A DNA stretch of 64,000 nucleotides, taken from contig NC_014363.1 in the NCBI RefSeq assembly GCF_000143845.1, positions 1,969,186 through 2,033,185 of the forward strand, written 5' to 3'. Source of the DNA: Olsenella uli DSM 7084 (GTDB lineage: Bacteria; Actinomycetota; Coriobacteriia; Coriobacteriales; Atopobiaceae). A program made the translations under genes and the position numbers. Shown here piece by piece: positions 39,467-64,000 of the stretch; positions within the stretch are counted from its first letter, which is position 1, and each line of letters starts with the position of its first letter. The notes beneath the pieces were generated by a model. That model made no database searches. It was not told the origin of the DNA and saw nothing but the letters and a program-made list of their open reading frames with translations.

Positions 39467-39543
39467 GCGGCGTTACCTCAGCTGGATAGAGGGTCTGACT
39501 ACGAATCAGAACGTCACAGGTTCGAATCCTGTACGCCGCACCA
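39467..39543 (+). tRNA. tRNA-Arg(ACG), copy 1
   Basis: Acceptor arms GCGGCGT and ACGCCGC, D-arm, anticodon ACG at 39501-39503, T-loop GGTTCGAATCC, encoded CCA at 39541-39543. With A34 edited to inosine it reads CGU, CGC and CGA. Confidence 0.97.
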
Positions 39544-39651: not shown

Positions 39652-39728
39652 GCGGCGTTACCTCAGCTGGATAGAGGGTCTGACTACGAATCAGAACGTC
39701 ACAGGTTCGAATCCTGTACGCCGCACCA
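39652..39728 (+). tRNA. tRNA-Arg(ACG), copy 2
   Basis: Same sequence as copy 1, 185 bases downstream; anticodon ACG at 39686-39688 and encoded CCA at 39726-39728. Confidence 0.97.
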
Positions 39729-58944: not shown

Positions 58945-59964
58945 TCATTGCATGGTGGCGCGCCTCATGGAGCCGCTGGAGACAGCCGGGGCCTTGGTCA
59001 CGTAGCCCGTGAGGTCCGCACCAGTGAACAGCTTGATGAGCCAGAAGTAGACGAGCAGGACGGCCATGGGCACAAGGCATGACGTCACGATGCTCACCGC
59101 CACGGCATCGATGAGTGTGTTGAGCTGCGCGCCCACGGCGCTGGCCGCATCCTTGGCGCCGGAAGCGAGGGCGTCTATTCCACTGGAGGCAGCCAAGCCC
59201 AGCATGTCGAAGAGGCCCCCGCCTTCGCTGTGGTTCTGGCTGGCTGTCCCGTCGGCGTTGTCGGACATGCCCTGGACTGCCGTATCGGTGGCCTGGACCG
59301 CCTTATCCACCTGCTGCGATGACTGGTACTGTGCGTTTATGACGTCAGCGAGGCCGGCGCTCACGGGCACGAGCGTTGCCAGCGCCACCCCAACCACCAT
59401 GAGCCTGACACCCCAGACGAAGAGCATGGGACGTGGGGCCCAGTCCCTGCGCGTCCACAGCCAGGCGATGAGCGTGCCCAAGCCGATGGGGACAAAGACC
59501 CTGAAGCCAATGAGGCCAAACGTGGTCATGAGGAACTTCTCGAGGTAGATAACAGAGAGGACGACCACGAGCTTGCCCGAGAGGTCCGCGAGCTGCTCGG
59601 CTATGGGAGTGCCCACGTCGTCGGGGATGGCCGTGACCGTCACCGAGGCGGCAGTGGCCGTGGCGACGAGCCCGAGGGCGGTGCTCTTCTGGCCGTCGAG
59701 GGTGGCGTTGGTGCCCCCATAGGCATCTTGGGTCGAGAGGTACGTTCCCAGGGGGAACTCGGAGGCAAGCAGGAGCACGGCGAGGAGCGCCGTCACGATA
59801 GCCCGTGCGCGAGAGTCCGACATACCAACTGGATCGTCACTGCCACCAAAACCCCCAGGATCCCCGGACCCCGTAACGCGACAATCCGCGGATGCGCTCG
59901 CTGCCGGCGACCGTCCGACGCGCATCGGGCGCCCCCCTCCGCTGCCTTGGGCTGTGTTGGGCAT
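58945..59964 (-). CDS. Polytopic membrane protein of unknown function
   Basis: 339 residues from ATG 59964, chosen for the GAGGGGAG site; ATG 59823 (MSDSRARA) is an alternative and would remove a Gly/Ser-rich N-terminal 47 residues. About four membrane segments: AIVTALLAVLLLASEFPLG, VVVLSVIYLEKFLMTTFGLIGF, LMVVGVALATLVPVSAGLADV and VSIVTSCLVPMAVLLVYFWLI. Between the third and fourth is a hydrophilic region of about 90 residues. No family recognised. It follows argH on the same strand by 52 bases. Confidence 0.65.
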   Translation of the reverse strand: MPNTAQGSGGGRPMRVGRSPAASASADCRVTGSGDPGGFGGSDDPVGMSDSRARAIVTALLAVLLLASEFPLGTYLSTQDAYGGTNATLDGQKSTALGLVATATAASVTVTAIPDDVGTPIAEQLADLSGKLVVVLSVIYLEKFLMTTFGLIGFRVFVPIGLGTLIAWLWTRRDWAPRPMLFVWGVRLMVVGVALATLVPVSAGLADVINAQYQSSQQVDKAVQATDTAVQGMSDNADGTASQNHSEGGGLFDMLGLAASSGIDALASGAKDAASAVGAQLNTLIDAVAVSIVTSCLVPMAVLLVYFWLIKLFTGADLTGYVTKAPAVSSGSMRRATMQ

Positions 59965-60016
59965 GCGCTGCTCCCCTCTCCTCGGGCTGCCGTCCGGCGC
60001 GACTGCTACAGGAACC

Positions 60017-61429
60017 TTACTGCATCGGAAGGTCGGGCGCCGCCCATTCTCGCCCATCCTTCTTCAGGCGCTCTTGGGCCTCGTCAAGCTGGCGCTCGAC
60101 GGCGGTGCACCCGGTGCCACCATAGGTGTTGCGAGCGTTCGCGATGCCAGCGGGGTCGAGGTCCTGCGCTATGTCGTCGCCGAAGAGGGGGCTGGCGGCG
60201 CGGAACTCGTCTGCCGTGAGGTCCTCCAGCCCCTTGCCGCGCTTCTCGCAGTAGAGCACGAGCCTGCCCACCACCTCGTGCGCCTCACGGAACGGCATGC
60301 CCTTCTTGGCGAGGTAGTCCGCCACGTCCGTGGCGGCGGTGAGGCCCCTGCCCGCCCCCGCGAGCATGGACTCGGCGTTTACGGTCATGGTGCCGAGCAT
60401 CCCCGAGGCAATCGCCATGCAGTCACGGAGCGTGTCTGTGGCGTCCACGAGACCCTCCTTGCATTCCTGCAGATCCTTGTTGTAGGCAAGTGGCAGCGAC
60501 TTCATGGTGGTAAGCAGCGCCATGAGGTCACCGTAGACGCGCCCCGTCTTGCCGCGGGCGAGCTCGGCGAAGTCCGGGTTCTTCTTCTGCGGCATGATGG
60601 AGGAGCCCGTAGAATAGCTGTCGGAGAGCGTGATGAAGCCAAACTCCGTGCTGCTCCAAAGCACGACCTCCTCGCACAGGCGCGAGAGGTGCATCATGCT
60701 CACGGCGCAGGCATAGTCAAGGTCGAGCAGGTAGTCGCGATCCGAGACCGCATCCATCGAGTTGGGGATCTCGTGGTCGAAGCCCAGGAGCCGGGTGGTG
60801 TAGGCGCGGTCCAGCGGATAGGTGGTGCCGGCCAGCGCCGCAGCCCCCAGCGGGTTGGCATCCGCGGCCGTCCGAGCCGCCTCAAGGCGGGTGTGATCAC
60901 GGGTAAACATCCAAAAGTACGCAAGCAGGTGGTGCGAGAAAAGTACGGGCTGGGCGTGCTGCAGGTGGGTGTAGCCCGGCATGACGACCCCCATGTGCCT
61001 CTGGGCGACCTCAAGGATGGTGCGGCGCAGGCGGCAGTTCTCCTCCATGAGTCGACCCGCCGCCTGTTTGGCAAAGAGCCGTATGTCCGTCGCGACCTGG
61101 TCGTTGCGCGACCGACCTGTGTGGAGGCGCGCCCCCGCAGCACCGATCCTCTCCGTGAGCGCGCGCTCGACGGCCATATGGATGTCCTCGTCGCCCACGT
61201 CCCAGACGAAGCCACCCTGATCCATGCTCTCCCGTATGGCGGAGAGGCCCTCGACCATGTCCTGCGCGTCTTCCTGCGAGACGATTCCCTGGCGGCCAAG
61301 CATGCGGGCATGGGCGATGGAGGCGGCTATGTCTTGGCGATACATCCTCCTGTCGATGGGGAGGGACGCGCCGAAACGCTGCGTGAACTCATCCACATCC
61401 CGTTCGAACCTGCCGGACCAAAGCGCCAT
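60017..61429 (-). CDS. argH: Argininosuccinate lyase
   Basis: Last step of arginine synthesis: argininosuccinate to arginine and fumarate. 470 residues from ATG 61429, six bases after AGGAGG (a GTG at 61435 is too close). Superfamily signature GSSIMPQKKNPDFAELARGK, N-terminal LWSGRFERDVDEF and LHTGRSRNDQVATD, and catalytic PGYTHLQHAQPV. It begins 51 bases after argG ends, so argG-argH form an operon. Confidence 0.97.
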   Translation of the reverse strand: MALWSGRFERDVDEFTQRFGASLPIDRRMYRQDIAASIAHARMLGRQGIVSQEDAQDMVEGLSAIRESMDQGGFVWDVGDEDIHMAVERALTERIGAAGARLHTGRSRNDQVATDIRLFAKQAAGRLMEENCRLRRTILEVAQRHMGVVMPGYTHLQHAQPVLFSHHLLAYFWMFTRDHTRLEAARTAADANPLGAAALAGTTYPLDRAYTTRLLGFDHEIPNSMDAVSDRDYLLDLDYACAVSMMHLSRLCEEVVLWSSTEFGFITLSDSYSTGSSIMPQKKNPDFAELARGKTGRVYGDLMALLTTMKSLPLAYNKDLQECKEGLVDATDTLRDCMAIASGMLGTMTVNAESMLAGAGRGLTAATDVADYLAKKGMPFREAHEVVGRLVLYCEKRGKGLEDLTADEFRAASPLFGDDIAQDLDPAGIANARNTYGGTGCTAVERQLDEAQERLKKDGREWAAPDLPMQ

Positions 61430-61480
61430 GGGCACCCTCCTGGAAATCCATCGGTCTGGGAGCTCGCTAGGTACGCCACC

Positions 61481-62785
61481 CTACGCGCTCGCCGCGCTGG
61501 TAGCGGGCGTGCCTTGCTCCGCCTCGCCCGTCTCGAACTGCCTGACCTCGTGCGCAGACATCGACTGCACATACGAGGGTCCCTGACTCAGTGACCATGT
61601 CTGGGAGGGGAGCGAGTGCAGGGTGATCCAACCCTTGGAGCTCGAGCGGTCGAAGAGGTCACCGTGGCCGTAGGTTGCCAGCTCCCTGCTGTAGAGCGAA
61701 TAGTCCGACCTGCGACCAGTCACCGTGAACGTGCCCTTGTAGAACTTGGCCCTCACCTCGCCCGTGACGAACCGCTGGGTGTTGGCTATGAAAGAGTCGA
61801 GTGCGTTCTTGAGGGGAGAGAACCAGAGGCCGTCGTAGACGAGATTGGCCCAGCGCTGGTCGATGCCGGACTTGTAGTGCAGTGTGTCGTGGTCAAGGCA
61901 CATAGACTCAAGGGCCTGGTGTGCGCCGATCAGAGCGAGTGACGCCGGGCACTCGTAGCACTCTCGACTCTTGATGCCAATGACACGGTCCTCGATCATG
62001 TCGATGCGCCCGAAGGCGTTGGCACCCGCAATGCCATTGAGCTCGATGATGAGGTCCAGCAGAGGCATCTCCGTGCCATCCAGAGAGACGGGCGTTCCCC
62101 GCTCGAAGCCAAGGGTGACCTCGCATGGCGCGTCGGGGGCGTCCTCAGGGTCTGTGGTCATCGTCCAGATGTCCGCCGGGGGCTCACTCCACGCATCTTC
62201 GAGGACACCGCACTCGATGGCACGGCCGAAGAGGTTGTCATCGATCGAGTAGGGCTTATCAGCAGTCGTGGGCACGGGCACGTCATGAGCGGCGGCCCAG
62301 TCCATCTCCTGCTCACGGGTCAGCAGGTCCCAATCCCGCACGGGGGCGATGACCCTGAGGGTTGGGTCGATCGCGTGTATTGAGGTCTCAAAGCGCACCT
62401 GGTCGTTACCCTTGCCGGTGCAGCCGTGGGCAATGTAGGCGGCACCGTGGTGGTGCGCCGCCTCGACCATGTAGGCCGATATCATGGGACGGGACAGGGC
62501 AGAGAGGAGCGGGTAGGTCCCCTCATAAAGACCGTTTGCGGCGATTGCCTTGGTCAATATCTGGTCGGCATATTCGCTGCGCATGTCAACCGACTCGGCG
62601 GCGACGGCGCCCATGTCCAAGGCCTTCTGTTTGACCCAGCCCAGGTCCTGGGACTCCTGTCCCACGTTACAGCAGATCGCAACGACATCGAGGCCCTTCT
62701 CGACCTGAAGCCACTTCACCATGACAGAGGTGTCCAGTCCGCCCGAGTACGCGAGAACTACCTTTTCCTTGCTTGAGCTTGCCAT
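61481..62785 (-). CDS. argG: Argininosuccinate synthase
   Basis: Condenses citrulline and aspartate using ATP. 434 residues from ATG 62785 (GGGGAG eight bases upstream; GTG 62794 overlaps that site). PP-loop AYSGGLDTSVMVKWL near residues 11-25, then GNDQVRFE, SIDDNLFGRAIECG, and RESYECPA-type KSRECYECPASLALI. Upstream lies a leader peptide and terminator that look like a transcription attenuator, so expression should respond to arginyl-tRNA supply. Confidence 0.97.
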   Translation of the reverse strand: MASSSKEKVVLAYSGGLDTSVMVKWLQVEKGLDVVAICCNVGQESQDLGWVKQKALDMGAVAAESVDMRSEYADQILTKAIAANGLYEGTYPLLSALSRPMISAYMVEAAHHHGAAYIAHGCTGKGNDQVRFETSIHAIDPTLRVIAPVRDWDLLTREQEMDWAAAHDVPVPTTADKPYSIDDNLFGRAIECGVLEDAWSEPPADIWTMTTDPEDAPDAPCEVTLGFERGTPVSLDGTEMPLLDLIIELNGIAGANAFGRIDMIEDRVIGIKSRECYECPASLALIGAHQALESMCLDHDTLHYKSGIDQRWANLVYDGLWFSPLKNALDSFIANTQRFVTGEVRAKFYKGTFTVTGRRSDYSLYSRELATYGHGDLFDRSSSKGWITLHSLPSQTWSLSQGPSYVQSMSAHEVRQFETGEAEQGTPATSAASA

Positions 62786-62901
62786 TGCCGCCACTCCCCG
62801 AAGGTCGCCGTGTTTGACGTATGCCCGTCCCGCCCGGCCAGGGTCTCCTGATCGGACGAGTGGTATGCTGCTCGTGGACCCCAGGGCTCCTCCGGGTCAA
62901 C

Positions 62902-62923
62902 AAAAAACCCGGCGATGCCGGGT
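62902..62923 (-). terminator. Attenuator terminator in the argG leader
   Basis: Seven-base arms ACCCGGC (62917-62923) and GCCGGGT (62907-62913) around a 3-base loop, followed by TTTTTT on the minus strand. It lies 46 bases past the leader-peptide stop and 116 bases before argG. Its 5' arm can alternatively pair with the end of the leader peptide coding region. Confidence 0.85.
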
Positions 62924-63032
62924 GTCGTCGCAGTCTAGATGTGTGGGTGAGAACGAAGCGTCTCGGTGACTAGGACAACACGCACTGGCGTCGCAGCAGG
63001 ATTCGTCGAGCCTGACGTCGCTGGGCCAGCGC
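62915..63032 (-). promoter_or_regulatory. Four-segment attenuator structure upstream of argGH
   Basis: Segment 1 (63025-63032, GCGCUGGC) pairs with segment 2 start (62982-62989, GCCAGUGC), 8 pairs with one G-U. Segment 2 alternatively pairs with segment 3: GUGUUGUC (62974-62981) with GACGACAC (62922-62929), 8 pairs, extended by GUGC (62982-62985) with GCAU (62915-62918) across a 3-base bulge. That antiterminator takes up the terminator's 5' arm. A ribosome stalled at codons 12-13 would cover segment 1 and free segment 2; one that reaches the stop codon would cover segment 2 and let the terminator form. Confidence 0.75.
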
Positions 63033-63053
63033 GAGCTGAATGCCGTTTGCCAT
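62970..63053 (-). CDS. Arginine-rich leader peptide of the argGH operon
   Basis: 27 codons from ATG 63053, preceded by AGAGGGAAG at proper spacing, ending TAG. It starts MANGIQLALA and has three Arg-Arg pairs, codons 12-13 (CGA CGT), 16-17 (CGA CGA) and 21-22 (CGA CGC), within QRRQARRILLRRQ. Six arginines of 27, four of them the CGA codon, placed before an alternative-stem/terminator structure, are the marks of a ribosome-sensed attenuator. The peptide itself probably has no other function. Confidence 0.78.
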   Translation of the reverse strand: MANGIQLALAQRRQARRILLRRQCVLS

Positions 63054-63109
63054 GGTGCTTCCCTCTTCTCGATGTCACGGGCCACAAGGTGGCATGTCTG
63101 GTTGGGGGT

Positions 63110-63137
63110 ACTTTAGCTCCTGTGCTCGACCACGCAA
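63110..63137 (-). promoter_or_regulatory. Probable promoter of the arg leader
   Basis: Minus strand TTGCGT (63132-63137), 16-base spacer, TAAAGT (63110-63115). The transcript would start near 63102, about 50 bases before the leader ATG. Both hexamers are imperfect. The rest of the gap between here and the kinase gene ending at 63242 shows nothing further. Confidence 0.4.
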
Positions 63138-63241
63138 GCCAAAACTGCCACTGGTCACAACACCGAAACAAAGTGACGTTCGCAATCGCGGCGGCGGAGG
63201 CGGACGTGCCGCCCTGACCCCCATCCAAACGATCGAGGCTG

Positions 63242-64000
63242 TCAGCCCCTCTCCGTCAGCACCTCTCCCCCACTGCCAAACGTCACCGTAAACACGGATC
63301 CCCGTGGCTGGTTCTCGCCTACGGCGACGCGAGCACCGTGGCGGGCAAGGATGGTCTTCACAAGCGAGAGGCCTATGCCCGCGCCACCAAACTCGCGCGA
63401 GCGCGACTTGTTGACTCGGTAGAAGGGTTCGAACACAAGCTCCCGTACGTCGGGCGCAATGCCCACGCCCGTGTCGGAAACGGTGGCCACGGCCCCCTCC
63501 CTTGACGCGGAGAGCTGCAGCTCGACTTTTCCGCCATTAAAATTGTAGCGGATGGCATTCTCGGCCAGGTTGTAGAAGGCGCGGTAGAGAAGGCTCGCGT
63601 TGCCCATGACCGAGACGGGCTGGACATGGCAAGAGAGCGAGACGTTGCTCTCGTGGGCAAGGGGACCAAGGTCTGCTGCGACATGGGCGAGAACCGAATC
63701 GAGGGACACGCGCTGGACGTCGGGCAGCTCCCCCGTGTCCGTGAGCTCGAGGAGGTTGCCGACGAGGGAGGAGAGTCGGTTGACATACGTCTCCATCGTG
63801 TTGACCAGCTCGTCATACTCAGTCTGCTGCCTCTCCTTCTTCCTGAACACGTCGATACGCGTGCGCAGCACGGCGAGCGGCGTCCTCAGCTCGTGCGCAG
63901 CGCTGGCGGAGAAGCGCCTCTGCATCGCGAACGCCTCATCCAGCTGGCAGGTCATCTGGTTGAACGATCTCACGAGCTCCTTGATCTCCTCGCCGCCGTC
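63242..64000 (-). CDS. Sensor histidine kinase (5' end cut by window edge)
   Basis: C-terminal 252 residues of a HisKA-type kinase; the gene continues past 64000, since the reading frame is open to the edge (DGGEEIKELVRSFN is the end of a HAMP domain), so an internal codon at 63973 is not the start. H-box SASAAHELRTPLAVL, N-box NLAENAIRYNFNGG, DTGVGIAPDVRELVFEP and GGAGIGLSLVKTIL. Its partner regulator should lie upstream outside the window. No terminator is visible directly after it. Confidence 0.92.
   Translation of the reverse strand, partial: DGGEEIKELVRSFNQMTCQLDEAFAMQRRFSASAAHELRTPLAVLRTRIDVFRKKERQQTEYDELVNTMETYVNRLSSLVGNLLELTDTGELPDVQRVSLDSVLAHVAADLGPLAHESNVSLSCHVQPVSVMGNASLLYRAFYNLAENAIRYNFNGGKVELQLSASREGAVATVSDTGVGIAPDVRELVFEPFYRVNKSRSREFGGAGIGLSLVKTILARHGARVAVGENQPRGSVFTVTFGSGGEVLTERG

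Follow-up and report, generated by a model that had tools for sequence, protein, structure and literature searches.

The argG and argH genes of Olsenella uli DSM 7084 raise the question of whether an arginine operon can be controlled by the translation of a short leader peptide, as happens in the trp, his, leu and ilv operons with their leader-peptide attenuators. To our knowledge, arginine synthesis is usually described as controlled by ArgR, unlike the synthesis of those leader-attenuated amino acids. The stretch of DNA analysed here, referred to as the window, comprises 64,000 nt of the O. uli genome (GCF_000143845.1, NC_014363.1, positions 1,969,186-2,033,185 of the forward strand), a single contig of 2,051,896 bp. 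A first-pass annotation of the window had placed a leader-peptide attenuator with arginine codons in front of argGH, a claim now supported by conservation, covariation, restriction to CGA codons and linkage to argG. We consider it very probable that the argGH leader acts as a ribosome-mediated transcription attenuator, sensing arginine via charged tRNA-Arg(ICG).

A promoter-like site follows a histidine kinase gene on the minus strand, and after it come a Shine-Dalgarno region, the leader ORF, a GC-rich hairpin with a U-run, argG and argH. The features, in window coordinates, are:

63242 (end), minus strand: histidine kinase gene, upstream neighbour of the leader region
63110-63137, minus strand: probable promoter of the leader transcript, weak, TTGCGT (63132-63137), N16, TAAAGT (63110-63115)
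63054-63066, minus strand: Shine-Dalgarno region AGAGGG of the leader ORF (from sequence)
62970-63053, minus strand: leader ORF, 27 codons plus UAG (from sequence; kept in relatives)
62980-62991, minus strand: small hairpin ACGC-CAGU-GCGU over the third Arg pair, conserved
62968-62981, minus strand: predicted antiterminator 5' arm, GUGUUGUCCUAGUC, which includes the leader stop codon UAG
62922-62935, minus strand: predicted antiterminator 3' arm, GACUGCGACGACAC, its final 2 nt forming the foot of the terminator stem
62902-62923, minus strand: intrinsic terminator ACCCGGC-AUC-GCCGGGU UUUUU, a 7-bp GC hairpin and then TTTTTT
61481-62794, minus strand: argG, argininosuccinate synthase (PF00764, PF20979)
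60017-61435, minus strand: argH, argininosuccinate lyase (PF00206, PF14698)

The 27-codon ORF with a good ribosome site that had been described earlier is in place, AGAGGG ending 7 nt ahead of the ATG, and it encodes the 27-residue peptide MANGIQLALAQRRQARRILLRRQCVLS, in which all three of the claimed Arg-Arg pairs were located (63015-63020, 63003-63008 and 62988-62993). The promoter stands in part: a consensus scan returned no sigma-70 site above threshold near the leader, but the weak TTGCGT-N16-TAAAGT site is present, and similar TATAGT/TAAAGT-like elements cluster 61-77 nt ahead of the leader start in relatives (62 nt in O. uli). The high G+C content of the genome favours CGN codons, and an Arg-rich ORF might therefore have arisen by chance beside an ordinary terminator. 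Two or more Arg-Arg pairs in an ORF preceded by a Shine-Dalgarno sequence, a loose criterion, do occur in 39 of 750 dinucleotide shuffles, compared with 110 of the 150 unique argG upstream regions that lack argR. Chance is nevertheless scarcely credible as an explanation, in view of the conservation across genera and families, the CGA bias, the covariation and the argG linkage described below.

With ArgG as bait, argG upstream regions were gathered across Coriobacteriales. Most genera of Atopobiaceae close to O. uli by ArgG carry a leader ORF whose core reads RRQxRR (CGACGCCAGnnnCGACGWAY as DNA consensus) about 120-300 nt ahead of argG, among them Parafannyhessea umbonata, Olsenella profusa and Tractidigestivibacter species. 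In 140 genomes of the family, a pattern search found the RRQxRR-type motif almost solely ahead of argG, and the perfect motif occurs in O. uli at argG only; a second O. uli copy with one mismatch, inside a coding region read as lysS, was attributed to chance and gives no indication of a regulon. Arg-Arg leaders were found in three families, including Coriobacteriaceae and Eggerthellaceae-like families: in Collinsella and Enorma the leader is a different one, with RRQRAISRRR at its end, the Adlercreutzia leader is DRRRRSRGLRRRRA, and genus g70, from another family, has the RRQxRR leader again. The first-pass annotation had proposed conservation in relatives as a check, and in relatives the reading frame with its Arg codons, as well as the pairings, proved to be conserved and covarying, with the motif tied to argG. 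This conservation is broader than had been guessed, extending to three families with fixed CGA and exclusion with adjacent argR.

Several departures from the common pattern were observed. In genus g4, two leaders (L089, L091) have AAG in place of the ATG, and an in-frame TTG directly before it may be the start, while in six others (L067, L070, L072-L075) the first Arg-Arg pair is lost (e.g., NRQMRRI) and CAGnnnCGACGAAT is kept. Collinsella-type upstream regions (L168, L184, L242, L245, L304) show pairings of 12-17 bp between the region after the leader and the region just before argG, for example GAGTCCAACTGATAT/ATATCAGTTGGGCTC and GAGTCCAACCGATAT/ATATCGGTTGGGCTC, in which both partners differ from species to species; they are read here as a second attenuator architecture. 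The genome that contains locus L239 (G016:C2:1-3500) has additional copies or fragments of ArgG on a small contig, and two of these are pieces that overlap.

The leaders were compared with a codon background made up of the window ORFs and the argG genes. In 98 distinct leaders CGA makes up 50.6% of all Arg codons, compared with 3.7% in the argG genes at those loci (Fisher P 4e-123, kinship ignored), the share in 33 window ORFs being 5.8%; it opens 227 of the 244 Arg-Arg pairs in leaders. The tRNA-Arg anticodons of the O. uli genome are ACG (two copies), CCG, TCT and CCT; with TCG missing, only the ACG (inosine) tRNA is left to read CGA. Inosine-containing tRNA-Arg is a slow decoder of CGA. Both tRNA-Arg(ACG) genes of the genome lie in tandem within the window (39467-39543 and 39652-39728).

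The same codons bear on the possibility that the RRQxRR peptide itself stalls the ribosome together with free arginine or another ligand and in this way controls the terminator, nascent-peptide arrest by arginine being known from its model, the fungal arginine attenuator peptide. The core is indeed kept as a peptide, its Gln being nearly invariant in Atopobiaceae. Such arrest would not, however, account for a fixed synonymous choice of CGA; the N-terminal halves of the leader peptides are unrelated, and the peptides of other families differ (those of Adlercreutzia and Collinsella given above). A stall with plentiful arginine would moreover leave the antiterminator arm free, which is the wrong sign for a biosynthesis operon, and we regard this explanation as improbable. 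Because the CGA bias spans families with different peptides, codon sensing is the easiest explanation, in preference to peptide arrest or to a single RNA fold.

Downstream of the leader ORF, the U-run terminator claimed ahead of argG is confirmed by the 7-bp GC hairpin at 62902-62923, the sole terminator-like site detected within 62700-63300. In a structural alignment of 31 leaders of Atopobiaceae, the terminator is paired in 95.4% of cells, with compensatory changes. The 8-bp pairing GUGUUGUC:GACGACAC is present in O. uli, and across the alignment the antiterminator is paired in 77.9% of cells, compared with 33-48% when it is slid by 1-3 columns. Its covariation score was matched by 3 of 500 shuffles, and arms taken from the same species pair at -17.1 kcal/mol vs -13.7 kcal/mol when swapped between species (P 5e-5, kinship ignored). 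Column 104 of the alignment belongs to both structures: its antiterminator partner is column 41, its terminator partner column 124. U-A-U (17) and C-G-C (5) are the most frequent triples, and 25 of the 31 rows satisfy both pairings at once (permutation P 1.5e-4, kinship ignored). Along the ArgG tree, about five changes fall in column 104, and its partners never change in the opposite direction; tree-based tests of independent pairs gave no significance, there being too few independent changes. The leader-terminator region as a whole folds no better than shuffles (z -0.88).

The earlier claim that a third segment is common to antiterminator and terminator thus stands in the sense that covariation is found with both, but what they have in common in O. 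uli is only 2 nt (62922-62923) and not the whole arm. The two base pairs of the terminator that are contested adjoin the U-run. As the two states in O. uli differ by about 0.2 kcal/mol, so small an overlap makes their mutual exclusion partial on thermodynamics alone. A 2-nt overlap is found in 19 leaders (O. uli and 18 others), in 13 of which the two states lie no more than 0.5 kcal/mol apart, and the overlap amounts to 5-9 nt in six other leaders.

Of the anatomy modelled on trp, the leader, terminator and antiterminator are borne out, but a conserved segment 1 is not, and the competition in O. uli involves 2 nt only. The stem between segments 1 and 2 (63025-63032 with 62982-62989) is strong in O. 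uli only, and it was rejected as a conserved part, native and swapped partners in relatives being indistinguishable (P = 0.80). The pair of mutually exclusive 8-bp stems described in the first-pass annotation does not hold up either: the 1:2 stem adjoins the antiterminator 5' arm (62974-62981) without overlapping it. A 1:2 protector stem, which would give termination without translation, was thus not found as a feature of these leaders. Such a stem is not universal among leader attenuators, masking by the ribosome at the stop codon can be a substitute for it, and its absence is not decisive. The small hairpin over the third Arg pair is paired in 91.9% of cells in the 31 leaders, with little covariation.

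Taken together, these elements suggest that the leader attenuator probably switches argGH on in response to ribosome stalling caused by a shortage of arginine. Transcription would begin upstream of the leader ORF, with a ribosome trailing RNA polymerase. With ample Arg-tRNA, the ribosome would pass the CGA-CGN pairs and reach the UAG stop; as this codon lies within the antiterminator 5' arm, the terminating ribosome would cover that arm, the GC hairpin with its U-run would be completed and transcription would end before argG. With scarce Arg-tRNA, the ribosome would stall at an upstream CGA (in the first or second CGA pair), and the free 5' arm would pair with GACUGCGACGACAC, taking the two foot base pairs of the terminator beside the U-run. 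Loss of these pairs would move the hairpin off the U-run and spoil termination, so that polymerase would read into argGH. The geometry of the switch is consistent with this scheme when the RNA is folded with a masked 5' end, and because polymerase makes the antiterminator before the terminator, the former would have a kinetic advantage whenever its 5' arm is free. That the ribosome stalls, that the response runs in this direction and that competition for a 2-bp foot suffices are what we infer from this arrangement.

The leader might instead act on translation, mRNA decay or Rho, with the hairpin and U-run secondary, as in two known arginine-sensing leaders. In the speF leader of Salmonella, consecutive Arg codons in orf34 sense arginine by ribosome pausing (PMC6386406), and rare Arg codons in the Staphylococcus aureus leader ORF rbfL sense arginine limitation (PMC13009471). 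A good U-run is absent from 4 of the 31 aligned leaders, relatives in genera g4, g50 and g17 have weaker hairpins, and in Collinsella the leader pairs with sequence immediately ahead of argG, as such a mode of action might lead one to expect. Against it, O. uli and most near relatives have a canonical terminator with compensatory changes, and argG begins about 180 nt past the leader end, which is therefore far from the argG ribosome site; we consider it unlikely, to much the same degree as arrest by the peptide. Resemblance to orf34 also ends with its consecutive Arg codons in a leader ORF, since speF serves polyamine synthesis, its control involves Rho, speF translation and RNase G decay, and its peptide belongs to DUF2618 (PMC6386406). 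A leader of that type was set aside for O. uli, with no Pfam match to DUF2618 (PF10940) in the peptide and argG, not speF, downstream. Unlike the argGH leader, rbfL uses AGA/AGG codons, covers the ribosome site of a biofilm regulator and represses translation, and its response has the opposite sign.

Transcription attenuation by the leader, the reading preferred here, also has to be weighed against ArgR. The 139 non-identical argG loci compared across Coriobacteriia divide into 79 with the leader only, 51 with an adjacent argR only, 7 with neither and 2 with both, the last two being spurious (other-frame ORFs inside argR); where adjacent, argR sits directly upstream of argG. Independent switches are few, about 4 for argR, and the mutual exclusion of leader and argR is therefore a pattern and not a significance test. 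Loci with argG and neither an adjacent argR nor a CGA-type leader include L057, L059, L063, L109, L113, L121 and L122 and others (genera g48 and g49). The O. uli genome does have one ArgR gene, which could control argGH at the promoter and leave the leader and hairpin passive, but this gene lies far from argG among unrelated genes. No ARG-box above chance was found near argG, with one 1-mismatch match in 4.3 kb against an expected 0.63, the form of the ARG-box in Coriobacteriia possibly being different. The leader is, moreover, kept in some near-complete genomes without an ArgR match, such as G127 (one contig, 99% complete), and fixed CGA and three-way covariation would be unexpected in passive sequence, all of which makes control by ArgR very improbable. 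A wider proposal, for which we see a real but somewhat less than even case, is that Coriobacteriia have class-wide arginine attenuators where an adjacent argR is missing, reading CGA via inosine-34 tRNA-Arg, and that the O. uli switch removes only two foot pairs of a minimal terminator. If this were true, the switch would report the charging, and possibly the A-to-I editing, of a single tRNA-Arg.

The O. uli leader has in common with the trp, his, leu and ilv attenuators a short ORF with codons of the product, a terminator, an alternative antiterminator and a stop codon positioned to mask one arm; it differs from them in serving arginine and argGH, in that its 1:2 protector stem is not conserved, in its CGA restriction and in the mere 2 nt shared by its two structures. 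A leader attenuator of this kind has been described for ilvBNC of Corynebacterium glutamicum (PMC11857589). Arginine T-boxes, which have been named (PMC1262725), and ArgR with its ARG-box also make arginine genes respond to arginine, but a T-box works by direct binding of uncharged tRNA and lacks a leader ORF, and ArgR is a DNA-binding repressor; a T-box riboswitch was discarded here, with no Rfam match in the window or leader region. In Pseudomonas aeruginosa, carA, a gene adjoining the arginine pathway, likewise has a leader peptide for which attenuation has been proposed, differing in gene and signal: the attenuation is reported to respond to pyrimidines, and arginine to act separately at transcription (PMC4997734). 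No conserved RNA structure was reported ahead of arginine operons in Actinobacteria (Seliverstov et al., 2005; PMC1262725), and no description of a leader attenuator for arginine biosynthesis was found in the open-access literature, subscription papers and preprints lying outside the scope. A conserved arginine attenuator in this class, which lives in gut and mouth, would close the gap between arginine and the amino acids run by leader attenuation, provide a natural test of why rare CGA is kept for sensing and be a case of an RNA switch standing in place of a repressor gene, and its 2-nt overlap bears on how little disturbance of a terminator prevents termination.

Between argH and purB, a 370-aa ORF (58945-60057, minus strand) has hydrophobic stretches and no Pfam match. 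A search for ArgJ in O. uli gave no match, and argGH may therefore make arginine from citrulline. Ammonia production from arginine has been reported for O. uli (PMC3035265).
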